The notes under the pieces are model-generated. The model had not been told where the DNA came from. It saw only the letters and a program-made list of their open reading frames with translations, and did no database searches. The position numbers and the translations under genes are program-made. From SAR202 cluster bacterium (GTDB taxonomy: Bacteria > Chloroflexota > Dehalococcoidia > Lucifugimonadales > GCA-2712585): DNA of 45,751 nucleotides. Shown in pieces: positions 5,985-42,660 of this stretch; position 1 is the first letter of the stretch, and each line of letters opens with the position of its first letter. The stretch is from the NCBI GenBank assembly GCA_016872285.1, contig VGZZ01000020.1:1-45751 (forward strand), in the 5' to 3' direction.

Positions 5985-6515
5985 ATGAAGTTTTACCGAG
6001 CGTTCATAACCCTGGTTATCCTTGTGGCTGCGATAGGCCCCACCGCCGCCTGCTTTGGAGGCTCCGCGTCCTGGGGCCGAACCTTCCAGGGACCTATCCT
6101 GGAGGTAACGCCTGTAGAATCGTTCACCGTGCCTGAGGTGGTCTACCAGGAAGACGACAAGAACACATACGTCATCAAGCCTTCCACCGGCAATGACCTT
6201 CTGGTCTTTCACGCCCGCATTGGGAACCACGCCGCCGACGTCGCCTTCATGGATATAGACAGCCAGCCTGCCGAAATAACCCTTGCCAGTGCCGGTTCAG
6301 TTAAGTCTGTCAACACTGCCCAGGTTAAGCAGCCTTTCGATGGCAGCGGCCAGCATCCCAGCCTGAACCGATACATCCCTTTTGTTCGCGGCACCCAGGA
6401 GTTGGAAAAGGGCTACGAACTGAATGGGTGGCTGGTATTCGACGTGCCCAAGGGCGATAAGCTTGAGCAGTTCAAGTGGGAAGCCGGCGGCGACGTCATC
6501 ATCATTGATTTCTAG
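5985..6515 (+). CDS. Putative secreted or lipoprotein with DUF4352-like domain
   Basis: Unknown function, 176 residues. The N-terminus has a positively charged start, a hydrophobic stretch and TAAC at about 20-23, which resembles a lipobox although the -3 residue is Thr rather than Leu/Val. The mature part is beta-rich and ends with GYELNGWLVFDVPKGDKL, close to the pattern seen in DUF4352/immunoglobulin-like exported proteins. It lies 12 bases after the cysteine desulfurase, but a functional link is doubtful. Confidence 0.65.
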   Translation: MKFYRAFITLVILVAAIGPTAACFGGSASWGRTFQGPILEVTPVESFTVPEVVYQEDDKNTYVIKPSTGNDLLVFHARIGNHAADVAFMDIDSQPAEITLASAGSVKSVNTAQVKQPFDGSGQHPSLNRYIPFVRGTQELEKGYELNGWLVFDVPKGDKLEQFKWEAGGDVIIIDF

Positions 6516-6612
6516 CCTCCCGCGTTCCCTACTTTGTACCAGGCACTATTCCTGATACCATTACAGGCATTTCCCGGCTTATTAACTCTCGCCATTTACA
6601 CAGGAGGACTCC

Positions 6613-7092
6613 ATGGCCGTAGACGTTGGACAAAAAGTCCCGGACTTTACGCTGCCCGATAGCGGCAACACCCCTCAGAAATTCAGCGACCTGGCCAAGG
6701 GCAAAAACGTTGTTCTGGCATTCTTCCCGGGCGCGTTTACCGGCGTCTGCACCAAAGAGGCTTGCTCTCTTAGAGACAGCGCGAGCAAGCTCAACACGAT
6801 GAACGCCCAGGTTATAGGCATTTCCGTGGATTCACCCTTTGCCCAGAAGGGCTGGGCCACGGCTAACAACCTCAACTTTCCGCTTCTCAGTGATTACTCT
6901 CGAATAGTGGTAAACCAGTTTGGCGTTTCTCTGCCCAACTTCGCGAAGCTGGAGGGGTATACGGCTTCGCGGCGCGCCGTCTTTGTTATCGACAAGAGCG
7001 GCACCGTGCGCTACAAGCAGGTCACGCCATCCCCCGGCGTAGAGCCTAACTATGACGAGATTAACCAGGCTGTGGCAAAGCTACCGAAGTAG
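6613..7092 (+). CDS. Peroxiredoxin (AhpC/TSA family)
   Basis: Thiol peroxidase that reduces hydrogen peroxide and organic peroxides, 159 residues. The motif FFPGAFTGVCTKEAC places the peroxidatic Cys at 46 and a second Cys at 51, the spacing of an atypical 2-Cys BCP-like enzyme; an AhpE-like 1-Cys mechanism with an extra Cys is the alternative. A strong AGGAGG precedes the ATG. It appears to be its own transcription unit, followed by a terminator-like hairpin at 7125-7160. The electron donor is not identifiable here. Confidence 0.92.
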   Translation: MAVDVGQKVPDFTLPDSGNTPQKFSDLAKGKNVVLAFFPGAFTGVCTKEACSLRDSASKLNTMNAQVIGISVDSPFAQKGWATANNLNFPLLSDYSRIVVNQFGVSLPNFAKLEGYTASRRAVFVIDKSGTVRYKQVTPSPGVEPNYDEINQAVAKLPK

Positions 7093-7124
7093 TCGCTGGC
7101 TTCGCTTTTGATTCGAGATTACGA

Positions 7125-7160
7125 TAAGGCAGGCCGAGGCATAGCGCCTGGCCTGCCTTA
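7125..7160 (+). terminator. Hairpin terminator after peroxiredoxin
   Basis: TAAGGCAGGCC at 7125-7135 pairs perfectly with GGCCTGCCTTA at 7150-7160, with four more inner pairs after a one-base bulge. It is followed by TAATATT rather than a clean T-run, so termination may be partial. It lies only 12 bases before the next start codon. Confidence 0.55.
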
Positions 7161-7171
7161 TAATATTCGCC

Positions 7172-7777
7172 ATGGCTGACATTGCCCCGACACGTCAGGT
7201 ACACCCGCCTCCCTGGCGCCGGCTGTTCCATCTCACCGCCGGCAGCTCTATACCTATCATAGGCGTCTTCGCGTCCAAGGAGGCTATGATTGTCCTCCTA
7301 TCTGTCCTGGCTGGGCTCTCCCTTATAGTCGAAGCCGCGCGCATGTTCATCCCACCCCTCAACACCTTCCTGCTACGTTACCTCAAGCCGCTTCTCAAAG
7401 ACGCTGAGAGCCGGCGATTCACCGGCTCTACCCATATGGTCATAGCAGCCTTATTCTGCTTCCTGTTCCTCGACAGAGGCTTCGCCGTGGCCGCTTTCCT
7501 ATTCCTGTCGGCTGGCGATCCGATGGCGGCTATCATTGGCCGCCGCGCTCCCGGCTGGCGGCTCAACGGCAAGTCTCCCGTGGGCACCCTGACCCTATTG
7601 GCCACCGGCATGGCTCTTTCCTTTCTCCTCTGGTCTACCGACGTGGCCTCACCACTATGGGCGCTTCTGGCCGGCGCCGCTGTAGCCTCGGTGGTGGAGA
7701 TATTACCTCTGCCGCTGGACGATAACTTCACTATTCCAGTCATCGCCGGCGCCGCCATGGGGATTATGACCTTGTAG
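7172..7777 (+). CDS. Dolichol/phytol kinase-like CTP-dependent membrane kinase
   Basis: Integral membrane protein of 201 residues with about six hydrophobic segments. GDPMAAIIGRR (about 113-123), GKSPVGTLT (131-139) and the closing block EILPLPLDDNFTIP (about 174-187) match the conserved order seen in the SEC59/VTE5 family, which phosphorylates polyprenols or phytol with CTP. It could also act on another isoprenoid or lipid alcohol, since the family is poorly characterised in bacteria. It ends 12 bases from the convergent cofC gene. Confidence 0.7.
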   Translation: MADIAPTRQVHPPPWRRLFHLTAGSSIPIIGVFASKEAMIVLLSVLAGLSLIVEAARMFIPPLNTFLLRYLKPLLKDAESRRFTGSTHMVIAALFCFLFLDRGFAVAAFLFLSAGDPMAAIIGRRAPGWRLNGKSPVGTLTLLATGMALSFLLWSTDVASPLWALLAGAAVASVVEILPLPLDDNFTIPVIAGAAMGIMTL

Positions 7778-7789
7778 GAGTGCCTACAC

Positions 7790-8443
7790 TTATGGCGCGG
7801 CGTCTGGGGCGGTGAGGCGGTAGATGAGGCCGGGGGTGAGGCTTTCGTATTCCTGGGCGTCTTCCCAGGTGTCGAGGTCAAGGGTGAGGCCGAGGGAGTA
7901 GTTGATGGTGAATGGAAGGAAGATAGAGGCGGCCTGGGCGACGTGCTTTCTGAAGCTGGACTCGCCCATCATGAACTGGAAGGCAATGGGCTGGGGGAGG
8001 AAGATAGCGTTGGTACCGCCGCTGCGCTGGGCGGGGACGAGGACGGCGGTGTCTCGGTGGGGGGAGGATGAGATGAGCATGTCCAGGTCGCGCTTTTTGA
8101 CGTAGGGGAGGTCACCGGGGAGGAAGAGGGGAGCTTTGTGGGTGTCCCAGGCGGTGCGGAAGGTGAGGTGGAGGATGGTGTTAAGGTCGGGGCCTGGGTC
8201 GGTTTTCCAGAGGGCGGCGTGGTCGGCGGCGAGGCGGCGGACGGGGTCGTCGGTGGCGACGACCCAGGTCTCGAGGGCGGCCTCCTGGCAGGCGCGGAGG
8301 GACTCGCGGAGGAGGTTGAGGGTGAGGCGCTGGCGCTGCTGGGGGTCGAGGTGAGGGGCGAGGCGGGACTTGGCCTGGGCGAGAGGTTTGACGGGGATGA
8401 TAATGACTGGAGCGGGGGGGGTGGGCGCGGGGCTAGTCGACAT
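7790..8443 (-). CDS. cofC: 2-phospho-L-lactate / phosphoenolpyruvate guanylyltransferase (F420 biosynthesis)
   Basis: Activates a three-carbon phosphoacid (2-phospholactate in archaea, phosphoenolpyruvate in many bacteria) with GTP for F420 synthesis. The 217-residue protein has the nucleotidyltransferase start IIIPVKPLAQAKSRLAP (14-30), FLPGDLPYV (about 107-115) and SGGTNAIFLPQP (about 141-152). The ATG lies inside the last codons of cofD (11-base overlap), so translation is probably coupled. Which phosphoacid it uses cannot be read from these motifs; bacterial homologues are often called FbiD. Confidence 0.88.
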   Translation of the reverse strand: MSTSPAPTPPAPVIIIPVKPLAQAKSRLAPHLDPQQRQRLTLNLLRESLRACQEAALETWVVATDDPVRRLAADHAALWKTDPGPDLNTILHLTFRTAWDTHKAPLFLPGDLPYVKKRDLDMLISSSPHRDTAVLVPAQRSGGTNAIFLPQPIAFQFMMGESSFRKHVAQAASIFLPFTINYSLGLTLDLDTWEDAQEYESLTPGLIYRLTAPDAAP

Positions 8444-9410
8444 GGGCTAGCTGGAGCACAAAACGGGCCAAGGCGACCTTGTCGTCGAGGGTGTTCATTA
8501 TGGTGTTGGCGACGGCGGGCTCCATGCCGAGAGATTGTATGGCAGGGGCGTGGGCCTTGTCAGCGGTGTCGATGATAAAAATGTCGCAGAGGCCTTGGTA
8601 CCATTTGGCGACCTCGACACAGTTTACCGGCATGCCCAGCTCGGCCATCATTTTGGCGGCGGGGCCTTTGACGGCGGCGCCGGCGACGATGGGGCTGACG
8701 GCGATGCGCTTGCCCCTTCGACCTTGCTCAGGACGGGCCTGGAAGGCCTCAATGCGTTTACGGACGCCTTTGAGGGCTAGTATGGGCGCGACGCTAAGGA
8801 AGGGGTTGGAGGGGCAGAATACCAGAACCCCGGCCGTCTTGAGGGCGGCGTCGAAGGTGGAAGAGGGGCGGGCTTTGGCTGCGCCTTTGTATTGAACGGC
8901 GCGGGCGGCGGGCTCGCAGTGGCGCTTGACGAAGTACTCTTGAAAGCGCAGAAGGCCTTCATTGGTGTCCACCAGGGTGCGGACGGGCTGGTCGGTCATG
9001 GGGGCTACGGCGTGCTTGATTCCGAGACGCTTGCAGAGGTCTTCGGTTATACGGGAGAGGGTGTGGCCCTGGCGGAGAAGATGAGTGCGCCGGATATGGG
9101 TAGCGAAGTCTTTGTCGCCGAGGTTGAACCAGGTGTCGTCGGCGTTATAGAGAGTGAGCATAGCCAGGGAGTTCCATGTCTCGTTGACGAGTCCCCAGCC
9201 TCTATGGGTGTCGTTGAGGCCGGCGAGGGTGTACATGACGGTGTCGAGGTCGGGGGAGACGTGGAGGCCGTGGAATTCATCGTCGTCGCCGGTGTTGACG
9301 ACGATGGTGAGGCGGTCGGGAGGAAGGGCGCGAGTGAGGCCGAGGGCGAGCTTGGCGCCGCCGACGCCGCCGGCGAGGGCGAGGATGGAGGGAGATGTGA
9401 GGTTAGGCAT
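8433..9410 (-). CDS. cofD: 2-phospho-L-lactate transferase (LPPG:FO), with in-frame repeat-derived insert
   Basis: Transfers the activated phospholactyl (or phosphoenolpyruvyl) group to FO, giving F420-0 or dehydro-F420-0. The 325-residue protein begins LALAGGVGGAKLALGL, followed by NTGDDDEFHGLHVSPDLDT and later AVSPIVAGAAVKGPAAKMM, all CofD/FbiA signatures. Between the helix KGVRKRIEAF and IAVSPI lies RPEQGRRGK, where relatives have only a few residues. The DNA there (8711-8740) matches the intergenic CCTGAGC...GTCGAAGGG repeat seen elsewhere in the window, so I read it as an in-frame repeat insertion. Followed by cofC with an overlap. Confidence 0.93.
   Translation of the reverse strand: MPNLTSPSILALAGGVGGAKLALGLTRALPPDRLTIVVNTGDDDEFHGLHVSPDLDTVMYTLAGLNDTHRGWGLVNETWNSLAMLTLYNADDTWFNLGDKDFATHIRRTHLLRQGHTLSRITEDLCKRLGIKHAVAPMTDQPVRTLVDTNEGLLRFQEYFVKRHCEPAARAVQYKGAAKARPSSTFDAALKTAGVLVFCPSNPFLSVAPILALKGVRKRIEAFQARPEQGRRGKRIAVSPIVAGAAVKGPAAKMMAELGMPVNCVEVAKWYQGLCDIFIIDTADKAHAPAIQSLGMEPAVANTIMNTLDDKVALARFVLQLAHVD
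8711..8740 (-). repeat. REP-like core inside cofD
   Basis: On the minus strand this reads CGTCCTGAGCAAGGTCGAAG, matching the CCTGAGCCT-GTCGAAGGG core found in non-coding copies at about 15937 and 33366 apart from a two-base change and one added base. The frame stays open through it. Confidence 0.6.
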
Positions 9411-9796
9411 AGAGGTATGTTTTCAGGGAGTCGTTTTGTGGCAATATCTCTTAACATCTTTTTTATTTGACAAACGAATATACAAACGAATAGCAACCGA
9501 CCCAAGGCAGGTTATGGACTGCCATACGGATGGGATGACAGAAGGCCGCTGGGTATAGGTGAGTGCACATGCGGTAAAGGGTAGGGGATTGGAGGCGCTT
9601 AAGGCAAGAGGAAGTTGTCACTGGGAGGATAGAGAGGACAGGGTAAGGAGGTTGGTCTTAGACCCGTCCCTACGGCTGTTCCTATCACGCCGTCGCAGCC
9701 TCGCTGGATTATTATGACGGTCTTGGTAATAATGGGCGCATAAGTGGGGAACGGATAAAGTCGGCCGAATTTTGAGGCAGAGGAAAGGGGTTTGTT
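9411..9796. other. 386-base gene-free interval upstream of cofD and FAH gene
   Basis: The interval holds the divergent promoters of cofDC (minus) and the FAH-family gene (plus). Next to cofD is an AT-rich tract with two copies of ACAAACGAATA, 12 bases apart, at 9470-9492; on the minus strand TTGTCA (9468-9473) could be a -35 with GATATT (9443-9448) as -10, though the 19-base spacer is long. Around 9653-9680 GGTCTTAGACCCGTCCCTACGG looks like half of the palindrome at 10759-10781. I see no gene here. Confidence 0.35.
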
Positions 9797-10738
9797 ATGA
9801 AGCTGGCATTTTTTGACGATTACAAGCTGGGTGTGATTAAGGGAGACAGGATTGTGGACGTGAGCGAGGCGGTGAGGGGGGTAGTACACACGTCGCCGCA
9901 GGACCTGATAAGGCAGGTGATTGGGGACTTTCCGAGGCACCGGCGGTTGATAGAGGCGGCGGCGAGCAAGTCGCAAGGGGTGGTGGTAAGCGGGGTGAGG
10001 CTGCGAGCGCCGCTGCCGGAGCCGCCCCGGATTGTCGCCATGGCGGTGAACTATATGGAGAACGGGACTCGAGAGAAGGCGGCGGAGATTAACGCGTTCC
10101 ACAAGTCGGCGAGCTGCGTCATCGGGAACGGGGACACCGTGATACTGCCGGACGCCGACGCGACGATTTTTGAGCAGGAGGCGGAGCTGGGGATAGTCAT
10201 CGGCAAGAAGGCGAGCAAGGTAGAGAGGTCGAAAGCGCACGAGTACATCTTCGGCTACACGAACTTTTTCGACATATCGGCGCGAGGGTTCAGGCCGGAG
10301 GGGAGCGGGAGCTTTTTCTGGGGGAAGACGTGGGACACCTTTGGGCCCATGGGGCCGGCGATAACGACGTCGGACGAGATAAAGAATCCGATGAAGCTGC
10401 AGGTGAAGTCATGGATTAACGGGAAGCTGTACCAGGACTATTCGACCAGCGACATGGCGAACGATATACCTCGGATTGTGGAGTGGGTGACGTGGATGAC
10501 GACGCTGCAGCCGGGGGATATCATCGCTTGCGGGACGAACCATCGAGGCCTGGCGGCGATTCAGAACGGGGATGTGGTGGAGATGGAGGCGGAGGGCCTT
10601 GGCCGCCTGATGGTGCGAGTGAACGACGAGCTGGGGAGGGAGTGGGATAGGAAGCCGAGGTTGGAGAAGAGCGCGGAGGAGATAAAGAAGATTAACGGGC
10701 CGGCGAGGCTGGAGAGATTGGGGAAGAGGAGTAGGTAG
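9797..10738 (+). CDS. Fumarylacetoacetate hydrolase (FAH) family protein
   Basis: 313 residues. The C-terminal FAH fold is clear: the metal-binding acidic block FEQEAELGIVIGKK (about 125-138), GYTNFFDISAR, and TLQPGDIIACGTNHRG...GDVVEMEAEGLGRL. Family members hydrolyse, hydrate or decarboxylate 2-oxo acid compounds in catabolism of aromatics and related substrates. The usual GTPxGxG turn is replaced by GTNHRGLAAIQNGD. A purine-rich AGAGGAAAGGGG precedes the ATG. It stands alone on the plus strand between F420 genes. The reaction cannot be assigned. Confidence 0.85.
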   Translation: MKLAFFDDYKLGVIKGDRIVDVSEAVRGVVHTSPQDLIRQVIGDFPRHRRLIEAAASKSQGVVVSGVRLRAPLPEPPRIVAMAVNYMENGTREKAAEINAFHKSASCVIGNGDTVILPDADATIFEQEAELGIVIGKKASKVERSKAHEYIFGYTNFFDISARGFRPEGSGSFFWGKTWDTFGPMGPAITTSDEIKNPMKLQVKSWINGKLYQDYSTSDMANDIPRIVEWVTWMTTLQPGDIIACGTNHRGLAAIQNGDVVEMEAEGLGRLMVRVNDELGREWDRKPRLEKSAEEIKKINGPARLERLGKRSR

Positions 10739-37101: not shown

Positions 37102-37253
37102 AGGGATATTTTAGCGCAAAAGGGGGAGGGGAGTGGGGTGGTAAAGAGGACTGTGCTCGACCTGCAATGAAAGTTGTACAGAGGAGTACGGATAAGTTGC
37201 GCTAGGCTAATAATGTGGTTAAGTTTCTTGAGTGCAATGAGGAGGATACCAGA

Positions 37254-38723
37254 ATGCTGCCAGATAACCCAATAACATCTGTAAGCCAAGATCGATTAGG
37301 GCGAGAATTTTTTGCAGACCAAATTGCTAAATCTGTCTTGAACCGAGACTCGACGAATTCGCTAATTATAGGATTATTTGGACCGTGGGGAGCCGGAAAA
37401 TCTTCGGTGGTCAACATGATCGAAGAGAAAATTGATAATGAGTCTGAAACATCGAAGCAGACAACAATTATCGTGAGATTTAATCCCTGGCTATTTTCAT
37501 CAATAGAACAATTAATATTGCGTTTCTTTGCAGAAATACGGACCTCGCTGAAATTAAAGTCCAACCGCAAAAATATAAAGAAGATTGGTGACCTTCTGGA
37601 TGGGCTTGGAACAATACTAGCTTTCGCGGAGATGGTACCAGGCGCATCTATCATGGGAAGGCCTAGTTCGCTAGCTCAACGAGGCTCTGATGCCTTGAAA
37701 AAAATAGGTGTTGACCGTCCGATCCATGAAATAAAGAAGGAATTGAGCGAGAGGATGAGAAAGTTGCCGATCCATTTGATAGTGATGGTGGATGACCTGG
37801 ATAGGCTGGAGAAAGATAGTTTGGTTGAGATGTTCAAGCTTATTAGGCTGGTTTCCGACTTGCCCCATACGACCTACATTTTGGCACTGGACAGGGAGCA
37901 GGTTGTAAGAACTCTTGAAAAGGACGATTCCATCTCTGACGCTACTTCATATTTGGATAAGATAATTCAGGTCAATATTGATTTGCCCGCACTACTTCCA
38001 GGTAAATTAGAGAGCTTTTTCTTAGATGGGTTGAATCAAGGCTTGGGGTCGTTTGAGGGATTCTCTTTAGCGGATACTGAAAGGGAACAGATAAGGTGGC
38101 AGAAAATATTCTTAAAGGGTATTAAACCGCTAATTAGAACTCCAAGGCATGCGATAAAACTAAACAACATCCTGGGGCTTTTGTTCCCGCTTATCAAGGA
38201 TGAAGTCAATGTTATTGACTATATAACGTTGGAAGCTATTCGGTCGTTCAATCCGGAGTTATTTTCCTTCATTTCGGGAAGTAAGTCTGAGCTATTAAAT
38301 GGTCCACAAGTGTACAGCCCACAAGCAAAGACTAAGCCAATGGACGCCGCGCCGCAGATCTTAAGGGGTATCTTGGAGGGAGGATCCCTTTATAAGCAGA
38401 TGTTGTTGGAGATATTCCCAGTTGTCTCAAAGTACATATCCGACATAAATTTCGGCAGTACTCAAGAGTGGCGAAAGTTAAGGCGTGTTTGTGCAGATGA
38501 GCACTTCGACAAATATTTTATGTTAACTATCCCCCAGGGCCGCTTATCTGAATCACAATTGAGAAATATTTTGAATAGTTCAGCAGATCCAAAGGCCTTT
38601 GAGGATTATGTTACTGGGGTAATTGAAGGTGATGGCATACACTCAGTAATTAACTACTTGTACGACCACATGGAAGAGATTCCTGCTGCCAACATACCAA
38701 CCATACTGACAACCTCAGCTTAA
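37254..38723 (+). CDS. KAP family P-loop NTPase (N-terminal/NTPase part)
   Basis: 489 residues. Walker A is GPWGAGKS (43-50), a FNPW motif (75-78) follows as in KAP proteins, Walker B is LIVMVDDLDRL (174-184) and ILALDREQVV (208-217) supplies a sensor-like motif. The KAP family includes the phage-exclusion protein PifA and the QatA component of a defence system; many members have membrane inserts, but only a weak hydrophobic stretch is present here (about 116-130). AGGAGG 9 bases before the ATG fixes the start. The gene and its follower are distinctly AT-richer than the flanks, which suggests horizontal transfer. Target and trigger are unknown. Confidence 0.85.
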   Translation: MLPDNPITSVSQDRLGREFFADQIAKSVLNRDSTNSLIIGLFGPWGAGKSSVVNMIEEKIDNESETSKQTTIIVRFNPWLFSSIEQLILRFFAEIRTSLKLKSNRKNIKKIGDLLDGLGTILAFAEMVPGASIMGRPSSLAQRGSDALKKIGVDRPIHEIKKELSERMRKLPIHLIVMVDDLDRLEKDSLVEMFKLIRLVSDLPHTTYILALDREQVVRTLEKDDSISDATSYLDKIIQVNIDLPALLPGKLESFFLDGLNQGLGSFEGFSLADTEREQIRWQKIFLKGIKPLIRTPRHAIKLNNILGLLFPLIKDEVNVIDYITLEAIRSFNPELFSFISGSKSELLNGPQVYSPQAKTKPMDAAPQILRGILEGGSLYKQMLLEIFPVVSKYISDINFGSTQEWRKLRRVCADEHFDKYFMLTIPQGRLSESQLRNILNSSADPKAFEDYVTGVIEGDGIHSVINYLYDHMEEIPAANIPTILTTSA

Positions 38724-38725
38724 CA

Positions 38726-39355
38726 ATGAAAGGATTCTTCGCAATAAGCGCAAAGGAAAGATTTACGGTCTTTGGAGAGGATCTTATTTTGGGCTTAGGC
38801 GAGCAAAGTGAAAGAGACTCACTACTCTTGAGAGTAACAGACGAGGGCAGATCTCTTTCTACAGTAGTCTATTTCCTTGGCTTCGTAGAACACACAACAG
38901 GCAGACATCCAGTTTTGGATAGCAAAAAGCTAGAGATCTTTTCAAAAGATGGCATTGAGAAGGCAAAGAACATTCTACTTGCTAGGATCCGCACCGAGGC
39001 GGAAAAAGGGACTGTGCTTGACCTTCCGGATCCTATGAATATCGTCTTTAGATGGAGAGATTGGGCTGGTAAAGATGAGGTCACGATAAAACTAAACAGT
39101 TATCTGAATACATCCGAAGGTTTGCTAAAGCTGATGAAAGCTTTCTCTAGCGAGATAAAATCCGTAGGTGGAGATGATACCGAAATCGTGCGTATTAGAA
39201 CTGAAATAAGATTAAAATACTTACAAGAATTTTTTGATGTACCAGCCCTGAAACAAAAGGTTGCACAACTGAAAAACTCACAAGACATCAAGTTGTCTGA
39301 TGATGAAATTAACTTAATCAATGGGTTTCTTAGTGGAGAAAGTTTAGACTTTTGA
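38726..39355 (+). CDS. C-terminal part of the KAP NTPase or separate partner protein
   Basis: 209 residues starting 2 bases after the previous stop, in the -1 frame relative to it. The central part (LEIFSKDGIEKAKNILLARI, FRWRDWAGKDEV, SEGLLKLMKAFSSEI) resembles the C-terminal helical region of full-length KAP NTPases, where a W-rich block is followed by L+LM/LKAF. I therefore think a single ancestral gene was split, either by a base loss or as a stable two-gene form. Without that link it would be an unknown protein. The composition is as AT-rich as the first half. Confidence 0.6.
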   Translation: MKGFFAISAKERFTVFGEDLILGLGEQSERDSLLLRVTDEGRSLSTVVYFLGFVEHTTGRHPVLDSKKLEIFSKDGIEKAKNILLARIRTEAEKGTVLDLPDPMNIVFRWRDWAGKDEVTIKLNSYLNTSEGLLKLMKAFSSEIKSVGGDDTEIVRIRTEIRLKYLQEFFDVPALKQKVAQLKNSQDIKLSDDEINLINGFLSGESLDF

Positions 39356-39359
39356 AATG

Positions 39360-39413
39360 ATTATAAGAAAAGCTGGTTTGTTGCCTTGAGGATATTTCAT
39401 TCGGGTTACAGTA
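39360..39413 (+). other. Possible degraded 3' end of a hicA gene
   Basis: The plus strand reads IIRKAG and, one frame later, LEDISF, which recalls the usual HicA ending (SILKQAKLTLEEF in the copy at 39854). It sits 46 bases before the gene fragment at 39406 ends, close to the spacing between intact hicA and the intact unknown gene. Very short, so uncertain. Confidence 0.25.
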
Positions 39414-39541
39414 AATCTTTACTCTTCAAGCTGGTGAAGACGGTTTCTCACACGATCCAAAATAATTTGGACATTACGAACTCGTAGTCCTCGTCGGTGG
39501 CGCTGGCGGATAGGGTGCAGATGAAGTTTTTGACGTAGGGG
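39406..39541 (-). pseudogene. Truncated duplicate of the 3' end of the gene at 40076-40477
   Basis: On the minus strand this reads PYVKNFICTLSASATDEDYE and continues to LKSKDLL and a stop, aligning without gaps with the last 45 codons of the intact gene (PYVKNFICTLSTSATDEDYE...). One codon is TGA where the intact gene has CGA (IVxETVF versus IMRENVF), so the frame is broken. Similarity ends near 39541. Confidence 0.85.
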
Positions 39542-39559
39542 TGGGCGTGGGCACACGAG

Positions 39560-39613
39560 ACGGAGGTGGCGAGGAAGGTAATATAAACGGAGGTGGCGAG
39601 GAAGGTAATATAA
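39560..39613 (+). repeat. 27-base tandem repeat upstream of hicB
   Basis: The unit ACGGAGGTGGCGAGGAAGGT plus AATATAA occurs twice back to back (39560-39586 and 39587-39613). Each copy has GAGGAAGG; the second places it 7 bases before the hicB ATG, so the repeat doubles the ribosome binding site. Confidence 0.85.
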
Positions 39614-39852
39614 TGGGAGTTGCACTATCAAAATTACCAGGCAGAGACATGCGCAACATAGACGTGGTGTTTTATAAAGAAGGAAGGTACTGGGTTGCCC
39701 AGGCGTTAAATGTGGAAGTCTCTTCTTTCGGGAATACCCTGCGAGAGGCTAAGGTGGCGATAAAAGAGGCCTTAGAATTGTATTTTGAGGATGAGCCTGA
39801 GCCGGAAGTGCTAAAGATATCAGAGGCTATTGTAGAGCGGATAACCGTTTAG
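39613..39852 (+). CDS. hicB: HicB family antitoxin
   Basis: 79 residues of the single-domain UPF0150/HicB type. DVVFYKEGRYWVAQALNVEV followed by SFGNTLREAKVAIKEALELYFED is the HicB fold, whose partial RNase H-like domain covers the HicA active site. GAGGAAGG 7 bases upstream supports ATG 39613; ATG 39649 is an alternative start nearer the conserved part. No DNA-binding domain is present at the C-terminus. Its toxin partner downstream is frameshifted. Confidence 0.82.
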   Translation: MGVALSKLPGRDMRNIDVVFYKEGRYWVAQALNVEVSSFGNTLREAKVAIKEALELYFEDEPEPEVLKISEAIVERITV

Positions 39853-39853
39853 T

Positions 39854-40073
39854 TTGTACAGCAGTCGAGAAATCGTTAGGGCGCTGGAGAGAAGAGGCTT
39901 TACCCGTGTATCCCAAAGAGGAAGTCATCTGAAACTGCGGAAGACTACTTCCGAGGGTGTGTTGACAGCTATTGTGCCTGTGGGGGGCTAGAGAAGTACC
40001 GGTGGGCACTTTTAGGTCCATTTTAAAGCAGGCGAAGCTGACATTAGAGGAATTTGAGTTGGCTTTGCGATAG
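39854..40073 (+). pseudogene. hicA: HicA toxin gene with a one-base frameshift
   Basis: A TTG at 39854, one base after the hicB stop, opens SSREIVRALERRGFTRVSQR and the catalytic GSHLKL, but the frame stops at 39989-39991. In the +1 frame EVPVGTFRSILKQAKLTLEE completes HicA, ending at 40071-40073. Removing one G from the G-run at 39982-39987 restores a 72-residue HicA. Mutation and homopolymer sequencing error are both possible. Confidence 0.82.
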
Positions 40074-40075
40074 GT

Positions 40076-40477
40076 TTACAGCAAATCCTTGCTCTTTAAT
40101 CGGGTGAAGACGTTCTCTCGCATGATCCAGTAGACGCGGGACATGACGTATTCGTAGTCCTCATCGGTGGCGCTGGTGGATAGGGTGCAGATGAAGTTTT
40201 TGACGTAGGGGTAGTTGTTCTCGATGGAAGTTACCGCTTCGAAGACCAGGTGACGCTGGACGTCGTCGGAGTGGGCGCGGAGGAGGTTGTGGAGCTCGGC
40301 GATGCGGGAGTCGTCGGCGGGGGAGACGGAGGCGGTGAGGTTGGCGAGGATGTTTAGCGACGCTACGCCCTGGCGCATCCGGTCATCGTCCGGAGTGGTT
40401 TTACACGCGATATACGTTGTTTGATGGGCGGCCCATTTGAAGAGATTGGCGACATGGACGCTTTCGATTTCCCGCAT
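40076..40477 (-). CDS. Hypothetical protein, partially duplicated nearby
   Basis: 133 residues, not recognised. It is mostly helical by eye (RIAELHNLLRAHSDDVQRHL), hydrophilic, without signal or membrane segment, with single cysteines in IACKT and FICTL. GGGGGACG precedes the ATG. The last 45 codons are duplicated at 39406-39541. It converges with the broken hicA, ending 2 bases from it. A GC-rich composition ties it to the host chromosome rather than to the KAP patch. Confidence 0.7.
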   Translation of the reverse strand: MREIESVHVANLFKWAAHQTTYIACKTTPDDDRMRQGVASLNILANLTASVSPADDSRIAELHNLLRAHSDDVQRHLVFEAVTSIENNYPYVKNFICTLSTSATDEDYEYVMSRVYWIMRENVFTRLKSKDLL

Positions 40478-40669
40478 TCGTCCCCCGTGATGGTTGTGAG
40501 CGTGTCGGGGCCATTATATTCGGGAGGGTAGACATAGATTCAACGATTTCTATAGCAAGTTTTGTCTGTTTGGCAGGAAGATAGTATTGCTGACCCGGCT
40601 ACCTGCTATGAGTCGGGATGGGGTAGAATGGAGAGGTGGGATAGAGGCGATGAGAGAGGTGAGGTAGAT

Positions 40670-40966
40670 ATGGTCAAGAGAAAGAGCGCAAAAGAAGTTC
40701 CAAGCGCGAAGGACCCTAAGTGGCGGGGATTCAAAAAGATGATTGATAAGCGCCGAGCGTGGACTAGCGTTCGGCTGGAGGAGATTGCGAACGATATTAA
40801 AGAAGGGTCGCCGGAGACGGAGCCGTGGTGGAACGAGTTGGAGTACCACTTGGCCAGGTTTAGGCAGTGGCCGGCGCCCCGGCTGGCGGACTTGATGGAC
40901 AGAATTGAGGATGGAAGGGAGCCGCGGTTCGCGGGGTACAAGGAGATGATAAACGAGGTGGACTAA
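40670..40966 (+). CDS. Hypothetical protein with two similar halves
   Basis: 98 residues, charged, unknown function. I chose ATG 40670 because GAGAGGTGAGG precedes it; the frame is open further upstream in unconvincing sequence. WRGFKKMIDKRRAWTSVRLE and FAGYKEMINEVD look like an internal repeat, as do VRLEEIANDIKEG and PRLADLMDRIEDG, suggesting an ancient duplication of a short helical unit. It is followed by a strong terminator. Confidence 0.65.
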   Translation: MVKRKSAKEVPSAKDPKWRGFKKMIDKRRAWTSVRLEEIANDIKEGSPETEPWWNELEYHLARFRQWPAPRLADLMDRIEDGREPRFAGYKEMINEVD

Positions 40967-41010
40967 AGCTCCGGCTAGTCCCGAGGGGTTGCATTCGGTT
41001 AGAGAATAGC

Positions 41011-41046
41011 AAAGCCCCCCGATGAATCGGGGGGGGCTTTTGTTTT
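41011..41046 (+). terminator. Intrinsic terminator after the 98-residue gene
   Basis: AAAGCCCCCCGAT and ATCGGGGGGGGCTTT form a long GC-rich stem (one extra G in the 3' arm) ending in TTTTGTTTT. Confidence 0.88.
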
Positions 41047-41171
41047 GGCGCTTACTTAAAGCTAAGGGCAGGAACATTTAGCTTAGTCGCCATGGGGGAT
41101 TACAGGCGGCTACGCACGACTAGAATTAGCTGGACTAACGACCTAGGGCGAGGTCGTAATGGGGAGCAGAG

Positions 41172-41615
41172 ATGACGGAGCACAATAAATCGATAGCCAG
41201 AAAGACCTTTGATTACATCTTCAACAAGAACGAGCTGGGAATGATACCTGACGTGTACGCCGAGGACTTTGTGGGCCATTACGGGGGGGAAGAGATAAAG
41301 GGACCTGAGGGTCTGCGGCAGTTCCTGGTGATGTACCGCATCGCGTTTCCGGACGCGCGGATAACGGTAATGGACCAGTTTTCCGATACCGACAGGGTGG
41401 CGACTCGATGGCGGTTGACGGGGACACAGCAGGGGCCGCTGTTGGAGATAACGCCCAGCGGGAGGATTGTGAGCGTGGACGGGCTGACGCTGACGCGAAT
41501 CGAGAGGAGAAAGATAGCGGAGGAGTGGACGCAGTTCGACTCGCTGGGGCTGATGCGGCAGCTGGGGGTGATTACCGGTGCGGTGCAGATGCGGGCGCAG
41601 GTGCGGACGGCATAG
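41172..41615 (+). CDS. SnoaL-like polyketide cyclase / ester cyclase family protein
   Basis: 147 residues with the NTF2-like cone fold. ARKTFDYIFNKNELGMIPDVYAEDFVGHYGG, GPEGLRQFLVMYRIAFPDARI and a GRIVSVDGLTLTRIE...EEWTQFDSLGLMRQLG ending are typical of the ester cyclase/SnoaL group. Such proteins are common in Chloroflexota; most have no assigned substrate. GGGGAGCAGAG precedes the ATG. It is a single-gene unit ended by a downstream terminator. Confidence 0.88.
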   Translation: MTEHNKSIARKTFDYIFNKNELGMIPDVYAEDFVGHYGGEEIKGPEGLRQFLVMYRIAFPDARITVMDQFSDTDRVATRWRLTGTQQGPLLEITPSGRIVSVDGLTLTRIERRKIAEEWTQFDSLGLMRQLGVITGAVQMRAQVRTA

Positions 41616-41734
41616 GGACGGGCGCTGGGCCAGCAGATTTGAGGGGTTTGGGAGGAGCTATGGGGGTGCAGGCCACCTGGGCGCCCTAGTATTGACCTTA
41701 TAGGCTTTGGTGTGTAGAGTTGGCGACTGCCGAT

Positions 41735-41762
41735 AACACTGTACGAAAGTACGGTGTTTTTT
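41735..41762 (+). terminator. Intrinsic terminator with GAAA tetraloop
   Basis: AACACTGTAC and GTACGGTGTT pair (one T-G pair) around GAAA, followed by TTTTTT. It ends the SnoaL-like gene unit. Confidence 0.9.
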
Positions 41763-41799
41763 GAGACGTTAGAGCCATCTCCAGGCCTGAGAGGTTATT

Positions 41800-42156
41800 T
41801 TGAGGATTAGCGCCGCACTGTTCAATCTTAGCCCTGTGGCCCAGTTATGGATGCTGGGGCTTGTATTGATATTCGCGGACTGCGCCAGCACGTATTACGC
41901 GCTGGAGATGGCGTCTAAGGATATGGAGGAGGCGAACTGGCTTGCGCGGGCGGCGCTGGAGGCGGGCGGATGGCCGCTGCTGGTTGTGAAGGACCCAGTG
42001 TGTTTTGGGATAGTGGGAGGGCTGCTGGCGGCGTACCGGCGCGTGAGGGGCGGGTTTACGGCGGGGGAGAGGGCAGCGGCGTACGGGATGCTAGCGGTGT
42101 TTGGGCTGGTGAGGATTGGGGCGGTGATGAATAATATGCTGGTGGCGAGTATTTAG
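41800..42156 (+). CDS. DUF5658-like small membrane protein
   Basis: 118 residues with about three membrane segments (14-32, 57-78, 92-112). FADCASTYYALEMA...EEANWLARAAL is the DxxSTxxx...EaNPLA-like pattern of DUF5658 proteins, here with W in place of P. The TTG at 41800 is preceded by GAGAGG with 5-base spacing. Function unknown. A hairpin follows the gene at 42193. Confidence 0.65.
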   Translation: MRISAALFNLSPVAQLWMLGLVLIFADCASTYYALEMASKDMEEANWLARAALEAGGWPLLVVKDPVCFGIVGGLLAAYRRVRGGFTAGERAAAYGMLAVFGLVRIGAVMNNMLVASI

Positions 42157-42192
42157 TCCATAACCTTAAATACTGACGAGATGTGATAGCGG

Positions 42193-42218
42193 CCTCGCTT
42201 TAAATAGGCGGGGTCTTT
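42193..42218 (+). terminator. Hairpin after the DUF5658-like gene
   Basis: CCTCGC and GCGGGG pair (one T-G) across a 9-base loop, followed by TCTTTT. Probable intrinsic terminator of modest strength. Confidence 0.6.
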
Positions 42219-42660
42219 TGATTTGAGTGCGAGCCTTGTTTTCGTTCGGGATACCATCCCCTGTCCCCTTTCCCGACTGCATCGGGACTGAGTACAGCCT
42301 GCTGGAAGGGGAGGAAAAAATAGGCTCACCTCATCACCCTCCTTCGGCCAGGCTCAGGACTGTCCGATTGCATCGGGCCGATCCTCCTACGGCGGACGGC
42401 CTCCTCATTGAATAAATATCAAGGATGAGGAGACTCCGCGATATATGCTTTAAGGCAGCAAAGCTCTTCCAGGCCGAAGGGGGAAGACCTGCGGAGCGGC
42501 TTCCCACCCTACAACTCTAGTTGCTCAGTGCAAGCGACGAAATAAACAACCTTATCTGACTCTTCTCTAGTCTTGACTTGCTGATCGCGGGACAAACAGA
42601 TTGGCAGCGACGGAGTCAAAGGTTTCTTGTTCAGCACAGCAGAAGCGTTTATGTAAGGGG
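42219..42660. repeat. Composite GATACCATCCCC repeat, copy 3, and REP core in a gene-free interval
   Basis: The 48-base core is at 42265-42312, identical to copies 1 and 2. CCTTCGGCCAGGCTCAGGAC (the CTCAGG core) follows from 42340, then a degenerate series to about 42420 with a CCGATTGCATCGGG hairpin. From 42420 to 42660 I see no gene and no clear element. Confidence 0.85.

Follow-up and report, generated by a model that had tools for sequence, protein, structure and literature searches.

KAP NTPases used in defence include Tmn (PMC11846954), and a further one, QatA, is a DNA-binding protein that seems to assemble into heptamers or octamers (PMC13279940). The F-plasmid protein PifA, responsible for T7 exclusion in Escherichia coli, is an abortive-infection protein that is thought to sense T7 products and to act through membrane depolarisation (PMC8594841). 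It is a single 741-aa chain encoded directly downstream of pifC, and PifA-type proteins are generally single chains of about 700-760 aa. In the 45,751-nt stretch of a SAR202 cluster bacterium contig analysed here (VGZZ01000020.1, hereafter the window), the corresponding sequence is instead distributed over two ORFs on the plus strand that lie in separate frames: ORF1 (37254-38723; 489 aa), which specifies the N-terminal part, and ORF2 (38726-39355; 209 aa), which specifies the C-terminal part. They are spaced by 2 nt, with the stop of ORF1 and the start of ORF2 arranged as TAA-CA-ATG. The likely start of ORF1, judging from the sequence, is the ATG at 37254, which is placed 8 nt past a perfect Shine-Dalgarno-like AGGAGG (37240-37245, plus strand); the 502-aa reading from the GTG at 37215 is merely the longest mechanical version. 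Together the two ORFs encode 698 residues, and the product of an intact gene would be about 705 aa, most homologues being 700-760 aa long. The 209 open codons of ORF2 are not a chance occurrence, as none of 20,000 shuffles matched them.

Both ORFs are readily placed in one family. The Pfam KAP_NTPase domain (PF07693) is recovered in ORF1 with an E-value of 6.7e-44 and 150.7 bits, well past the gathering cut-off of 20 bits, at residues 32-318 of the 502-aa reading. The PADLOC PifA model (720 positions) aligns with ORF1 over positions 3-474 (4e-76) and with ORF2 over positions 551-705 (1.8e-16), in order after ORF1. In a family profile of 702 positions that we made from nine full-length homologues, ORF1 occupies positions 6-484 and ORF2 positions 489-683. 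ORF1 contains the NTPase core, with Walker A (GPWGAGKSS) and Walker B (LIVMVDDLDRL) motifs, together with the beginning of the helical C-terminal domain, and retains the residues that are invariant among the homologues. ORF2 is 30% identical to the C-terminal part of the homologue L152, and its score against the family profile (60.6 bits) falls within the range of intact homologues, for which reason we see no sign of long decay in it. These sequence matches confirm that ORF1 and ORF2 are two parts of one PifA-type KAP NTPase, in agreement with the initial annotation, which had recognised the PifA-like KAP domain and had proposed that the C-terminal region is encoded 2 nt further on in another frame. 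No other strong KAP gene was found elsewhere in the SAR202 genome.

Comparisons with individual systems place the locus nearest to PifA without making it a Pif system. In BLASTP, ORF1 is 25% identical to F-plasmid PifA over 485 columns (1e-33), and ORF2 gives a weak C-terminal match (0.003); unlike in the F plasmid, there is no pifC beside the KAP gene, which is located between uvrB and hicBA in a member of another phylum. The likeness to QatA extends to the KAP NTPase itself and a weak NCBIfam QatA match (85.9 bits), but this is far under the curated cut-off of 600, and no qatB, qatC or qatD genes are neighbours. Tmn differs in having two transmembrane segments, of which none is evident here: the highest 19-residue hydropathy in the ORF1/ORF2 locus is 1.29, at GLGTILAFAEMVPGASIMG, in a simple Kyte-Doolittle scan. 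The KAP genes of DISARM-type operons belong to the same PifA-type family, at about 30% identity, but are intact and begin close to or at the drmMI end, whereas no drmD, drmMI or drmA occurs among the window proteins.

A further likeness emerges from an AlphaFold2 model of an intact homologue, L045 (mean pLDDT 87.9, pTM 0.82). Structure comparison with this model returned the RdrA rings of RADAR first (Z 17.6, rmsd 5.2, 349 aligned residues), followed by Orc/Cdc6 proteins. With RdrA, however, there is just 12% sequence identity, and rdrB is absent here; the modelled resemblance would thus reflect a shared ATPase fold only, and we claim no membership of RADAR. A sequence search of solved structures yielded short P-loop matches only.

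To survey the family, we assembled 80 homologous loci from genome contigs, 15 more from GTDB genomes after removal of duplicates, and 27 from viral contigs. The search for fused and split homologues that the initial annotation had recommended found a single ORF in 91 of the 95 cellular loci. The exceptions are split at profile positions 394-402 (L009), 444-452 (L057), 316-319 (L102) and 398-400 (L117), and one viral homologue (L183) at positions 341-355. As these breaks are scattered along the profile, splits in the PifA-type KAP family appear to be sporadic. A break at 484-489, the position of the split in the window, occurs in none of the cellular or viral loci, and a conserved split architecture was rejected on this ground. 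The 27 viral homologues, obtained by a profile scan, are distant and nearly all intact; neither a single-protein scan of the viral contigs nor tblastn of phage records produced close viral relatives. The homologues are patchily distributed, and the one closest to ORF1 and ORF2 is 37-39% identical.

The junction carries a lesion (38682-38716, plus strand) within a segment that in homologues comprises 19 residues and is mostly helical. From the proline at profile position 476 to the leucine at position 494, this segment has 19 residues in 77 of 83 homologues, 18 in four, and 21 and 24 in one each, never falling below 18. In the L045 model it corresponds to residues 481-499, in which a helix is confidently predicted at 482-494. 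In the window, the proline codon begins at 38682 and the leucine codon occupies 38714-38716, giving 35 nt against the expected 57 and a change of frame. The net shortfall is about 22 nt, or 16 nt with the second leucine as anchor. The anchor used here is supported by the closest homologue, L152, which aligns without gaps from D-N-L through G-F-F; homology in the frame of ORF2 begins at about 38708, upstream of its ATG. With a net loss of this size, residues are missing in addition to the frame being changed, the cost being about seven residues of the fixed-length segment. A single-base error or one missing base at the junction, also considered, is ruled out by the size of the shortfall under either anchor. 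By eye, no slippery heptamer for a programmed frameshift is present in 38660-38760.

In our view, the locus probably represents a PifA-type KAP NTPase encoded by one gene, which arrived between uvrB and ruvA through horizontal transfer and was later disrupted by a short internal deletion of about 22 nt. As nearly all relatives are one intact protein, the locus is better understood as a decaying defence gene than as a two-part machine. The initial annotation had offered both readings. Its stable split pair with a new architecture is not sustained, in view of the predominance of single-protein homologues, the unshared break point and the partial removal of a helix of fixed length; its gene decayed by a frameshift is favoured as regards the decay, homologues being single, but not as regards the lesion, which is larger than one missing base.

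It is nonetheless conceivable that the deletion, by placing an ATG 2 nt after a stop codon, created a pair of chains translated by reinitiation that assemble into an active complex. The spacing itself would suit such an arrangement, both halves are otherwise intact with no further stops inside either ORF, and the family score of ORF2 is normal. On the other hand, no homologue shares the split point, no Shine-Dalgarno sequence precedes the ATG of ORF2, about seven residues have gone from a segment of fixed length, and the third-position GC and the neighbours (see below) point to foreign DNA that was inserted recently and has a second broken gene, hicA, alongside. A functional two-chain KAP protein is therefore very unlikely, retaining a small probability because its halves are otherwise undamaged. 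The more specific version, in which ORF1 and ORF2 are translated from a single mRNA by termination-reinitiation at TAA-CA-ATG and the C-terminal sensor half joins the ATPase ring as a subunit of its own, we consider highly improbable.

Alternatively, the gene could be intact in the organism, the contig having lost a short stretch during assembly. The genome is indeed a draft of 83 contigs, and the nearby hicA is also frameshifted. Against this, some 22 nt rather than one base are missing, a repeat search detected no long repeat at the deletion point, and uvrB, ruvA, ruvC and mrp in the window align nearly full length with those of relatives. We hence consider an assembly artefact quite unlikely.

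The composition and surroundings of the locus bear on its acquisition. The region 37254-39355 has a GC content of 41.5%, against 58.6% and 56.7% in its flanks and about 58% in the contig, in keeping with the AT-rich patch that had been noted by eye. Third-position GC is 0.46 in ORF1 and 0.38 in ORF2, with most nearby host genes at about 0.7-0.87. The dinucleotide signature of the KAP segment is not markedly foreign (delta* 64.5 vs a mean of 61.1 elsewhere), and the segment is thus foreign by GC and codon-position GC only. Its neighbours are uvrB, on the other strand, upstream and hicB downstream. In four genomes of the same family (G413, G445, G473 and G485), the order mrp, MIP18, uvrB, a variable portion, ruvA, ruvC and yebC is conserved, and the KAP gene is absent in all four. 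From uvrB to ruvA there are 131 bp in G485 and 0.9 kb, including hicBA, in G473; the gap widens to 2.7 kb in G413 and to 5 kb in G445. From these sequence comparisons, the KAP gene was most likely inserted recently, at a site in the uvrB-ruvA interval that varies among genomes, and, with relatives lacking it and G473 having hicBA at the site, it most likely entered beside an older hicBA pair.

The interval spans 37102-42660 in the window, and its comparison with the equivalent loci (L138, L139, L140 and L141) identifies it as a variable insertion site in the family. The G445 interval carries genes for an AAA_21 ATPase and a DUF4276 protein, which correspond to the PADLOC models HEC-01A (2.2e-126) and HEC-01B (1.7e-72) and constitute a candidate defence pair, as well as a 1003-aa ORF. 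The uvrB-ruvA interval of this Chloroflexota lineage accordingly receives inserts of differing content, and two or more of these correspond to defence families.

The contexts of homologues offer a view of what the gene may have done. At least five cellular loci (L051, L053, L054, L060 and L067) and the viral locus L160 have a PifA-type KAP gene built into a class 1 DISARM-type operon. These operons have the order drmD, drmMI, KAP, and then drmA or a restriction-type gene, and the start of the KAP gene overlaps, adjoins or lies near the end of drmMI; in L067, the KAP gene is at about 5998-8136. A text search of the literature found no paper describing a KAP NTPase within DISARM, and these built-in KAP genes provide a lead on the role of PifA-like proteins. 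In L065, an intact KAP homologue is immediately followed by an HEC-01A/B-like pair (8806-10541). As a control, a PADLOC scan of 38 other window proteins gave housekeeping-like matches only, such as those of one protein to the DndA/SspA cysteine-desulfurase models. Viewed for defence islands, as the initial annotation had advised, the contexts are mixed: several homologues belong to DISARM operons, and the uvrB-ruvA surroundings of this copy are housekeeping, albeit at a variable insertion site.

It may be asked whether the KAP gene was ever a defence gene, rather than a chromosomal regulator or stress ATPase. KAP domains are widespread, a search at E<=0.001 having detected them in 10 of 14 control genomes. 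The L045 homologue has thiolase, HAD and RelA/SpoT genes as neighbours, and some others are also alone amid ordinary genes. Moreover, the authors of the BASEL study pointed out that very few phages are affected by PifA, which might serve some other purpose (PMC8594841). Opposed to this are the best known match, which is PifA itself, the DISARM-type operons listed above, the HEC-01A/B genes at the G445 insertion site and next to the L065 homologue, and the patchy distribution of the family. A non-defence function is hence unlikely. A defence ancestry of the KAP gene, as initially suggested, is plausible from the homologues in DISARM operons and the RdrA-like fold predicted for the ATPase part of an intact homologue; taken alone, the locus represents an already known family of defence-linked ATPases in decayed form.

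If the KAP gene descends from a defence gene, its intact ancestor would have been a phage-exclusion protein. Going by the closeness of the modelled fold to RdrA and Orc1/Cdc6, its N-terminal ATPase probably forms a ring that switches with nucleotide. By analogy with the proposal for PifA, the helical C-terminal domain would probably sense a phage product and thereby set off an abortive response. The SAR202 bacterium may still produce the ATPase half, minus the C-terminal part, but this protein most likely has no activity. The gene, if indeed a pseudogene, is a young one, given that no extra stops have accumulated and ORF2 scores normally against the profile.

Downstream of the KAP remnant, the toxin-antitoxin remnants reported in the initial annotation are clearly recognisable. 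A HicB-like antitoxin ORF (39541-39852, plus strand), with a weak DUF7387 match, shares 73% identity over 59 aa with an ORF that occupies this site in G473. It is followed by a HicA-like toxin gene (39852-40073, plus strand) that is frameshifted, as seen from translations and DNA alignment; at the equivalent site in G473 hicBA is intact, hicA included. Where the HicB-like ORF begins, a 27-nt unit is repeated in tandem as two perfect copies (39560-39613), on account of which the true start of this ORF is uncertain. Beyond hicA lies a gene for a 133-aa protein (40076-40477), with no homologue in the other genomes of the family. Repeat and genome searches detected a partial duplicate (84%) of its 3' end at 39403-39542 on the minus strand; this forms a 140-nt direct repeat (84%) with 40073-40212, such that the end of this gene occurs on both sides of hicBA.
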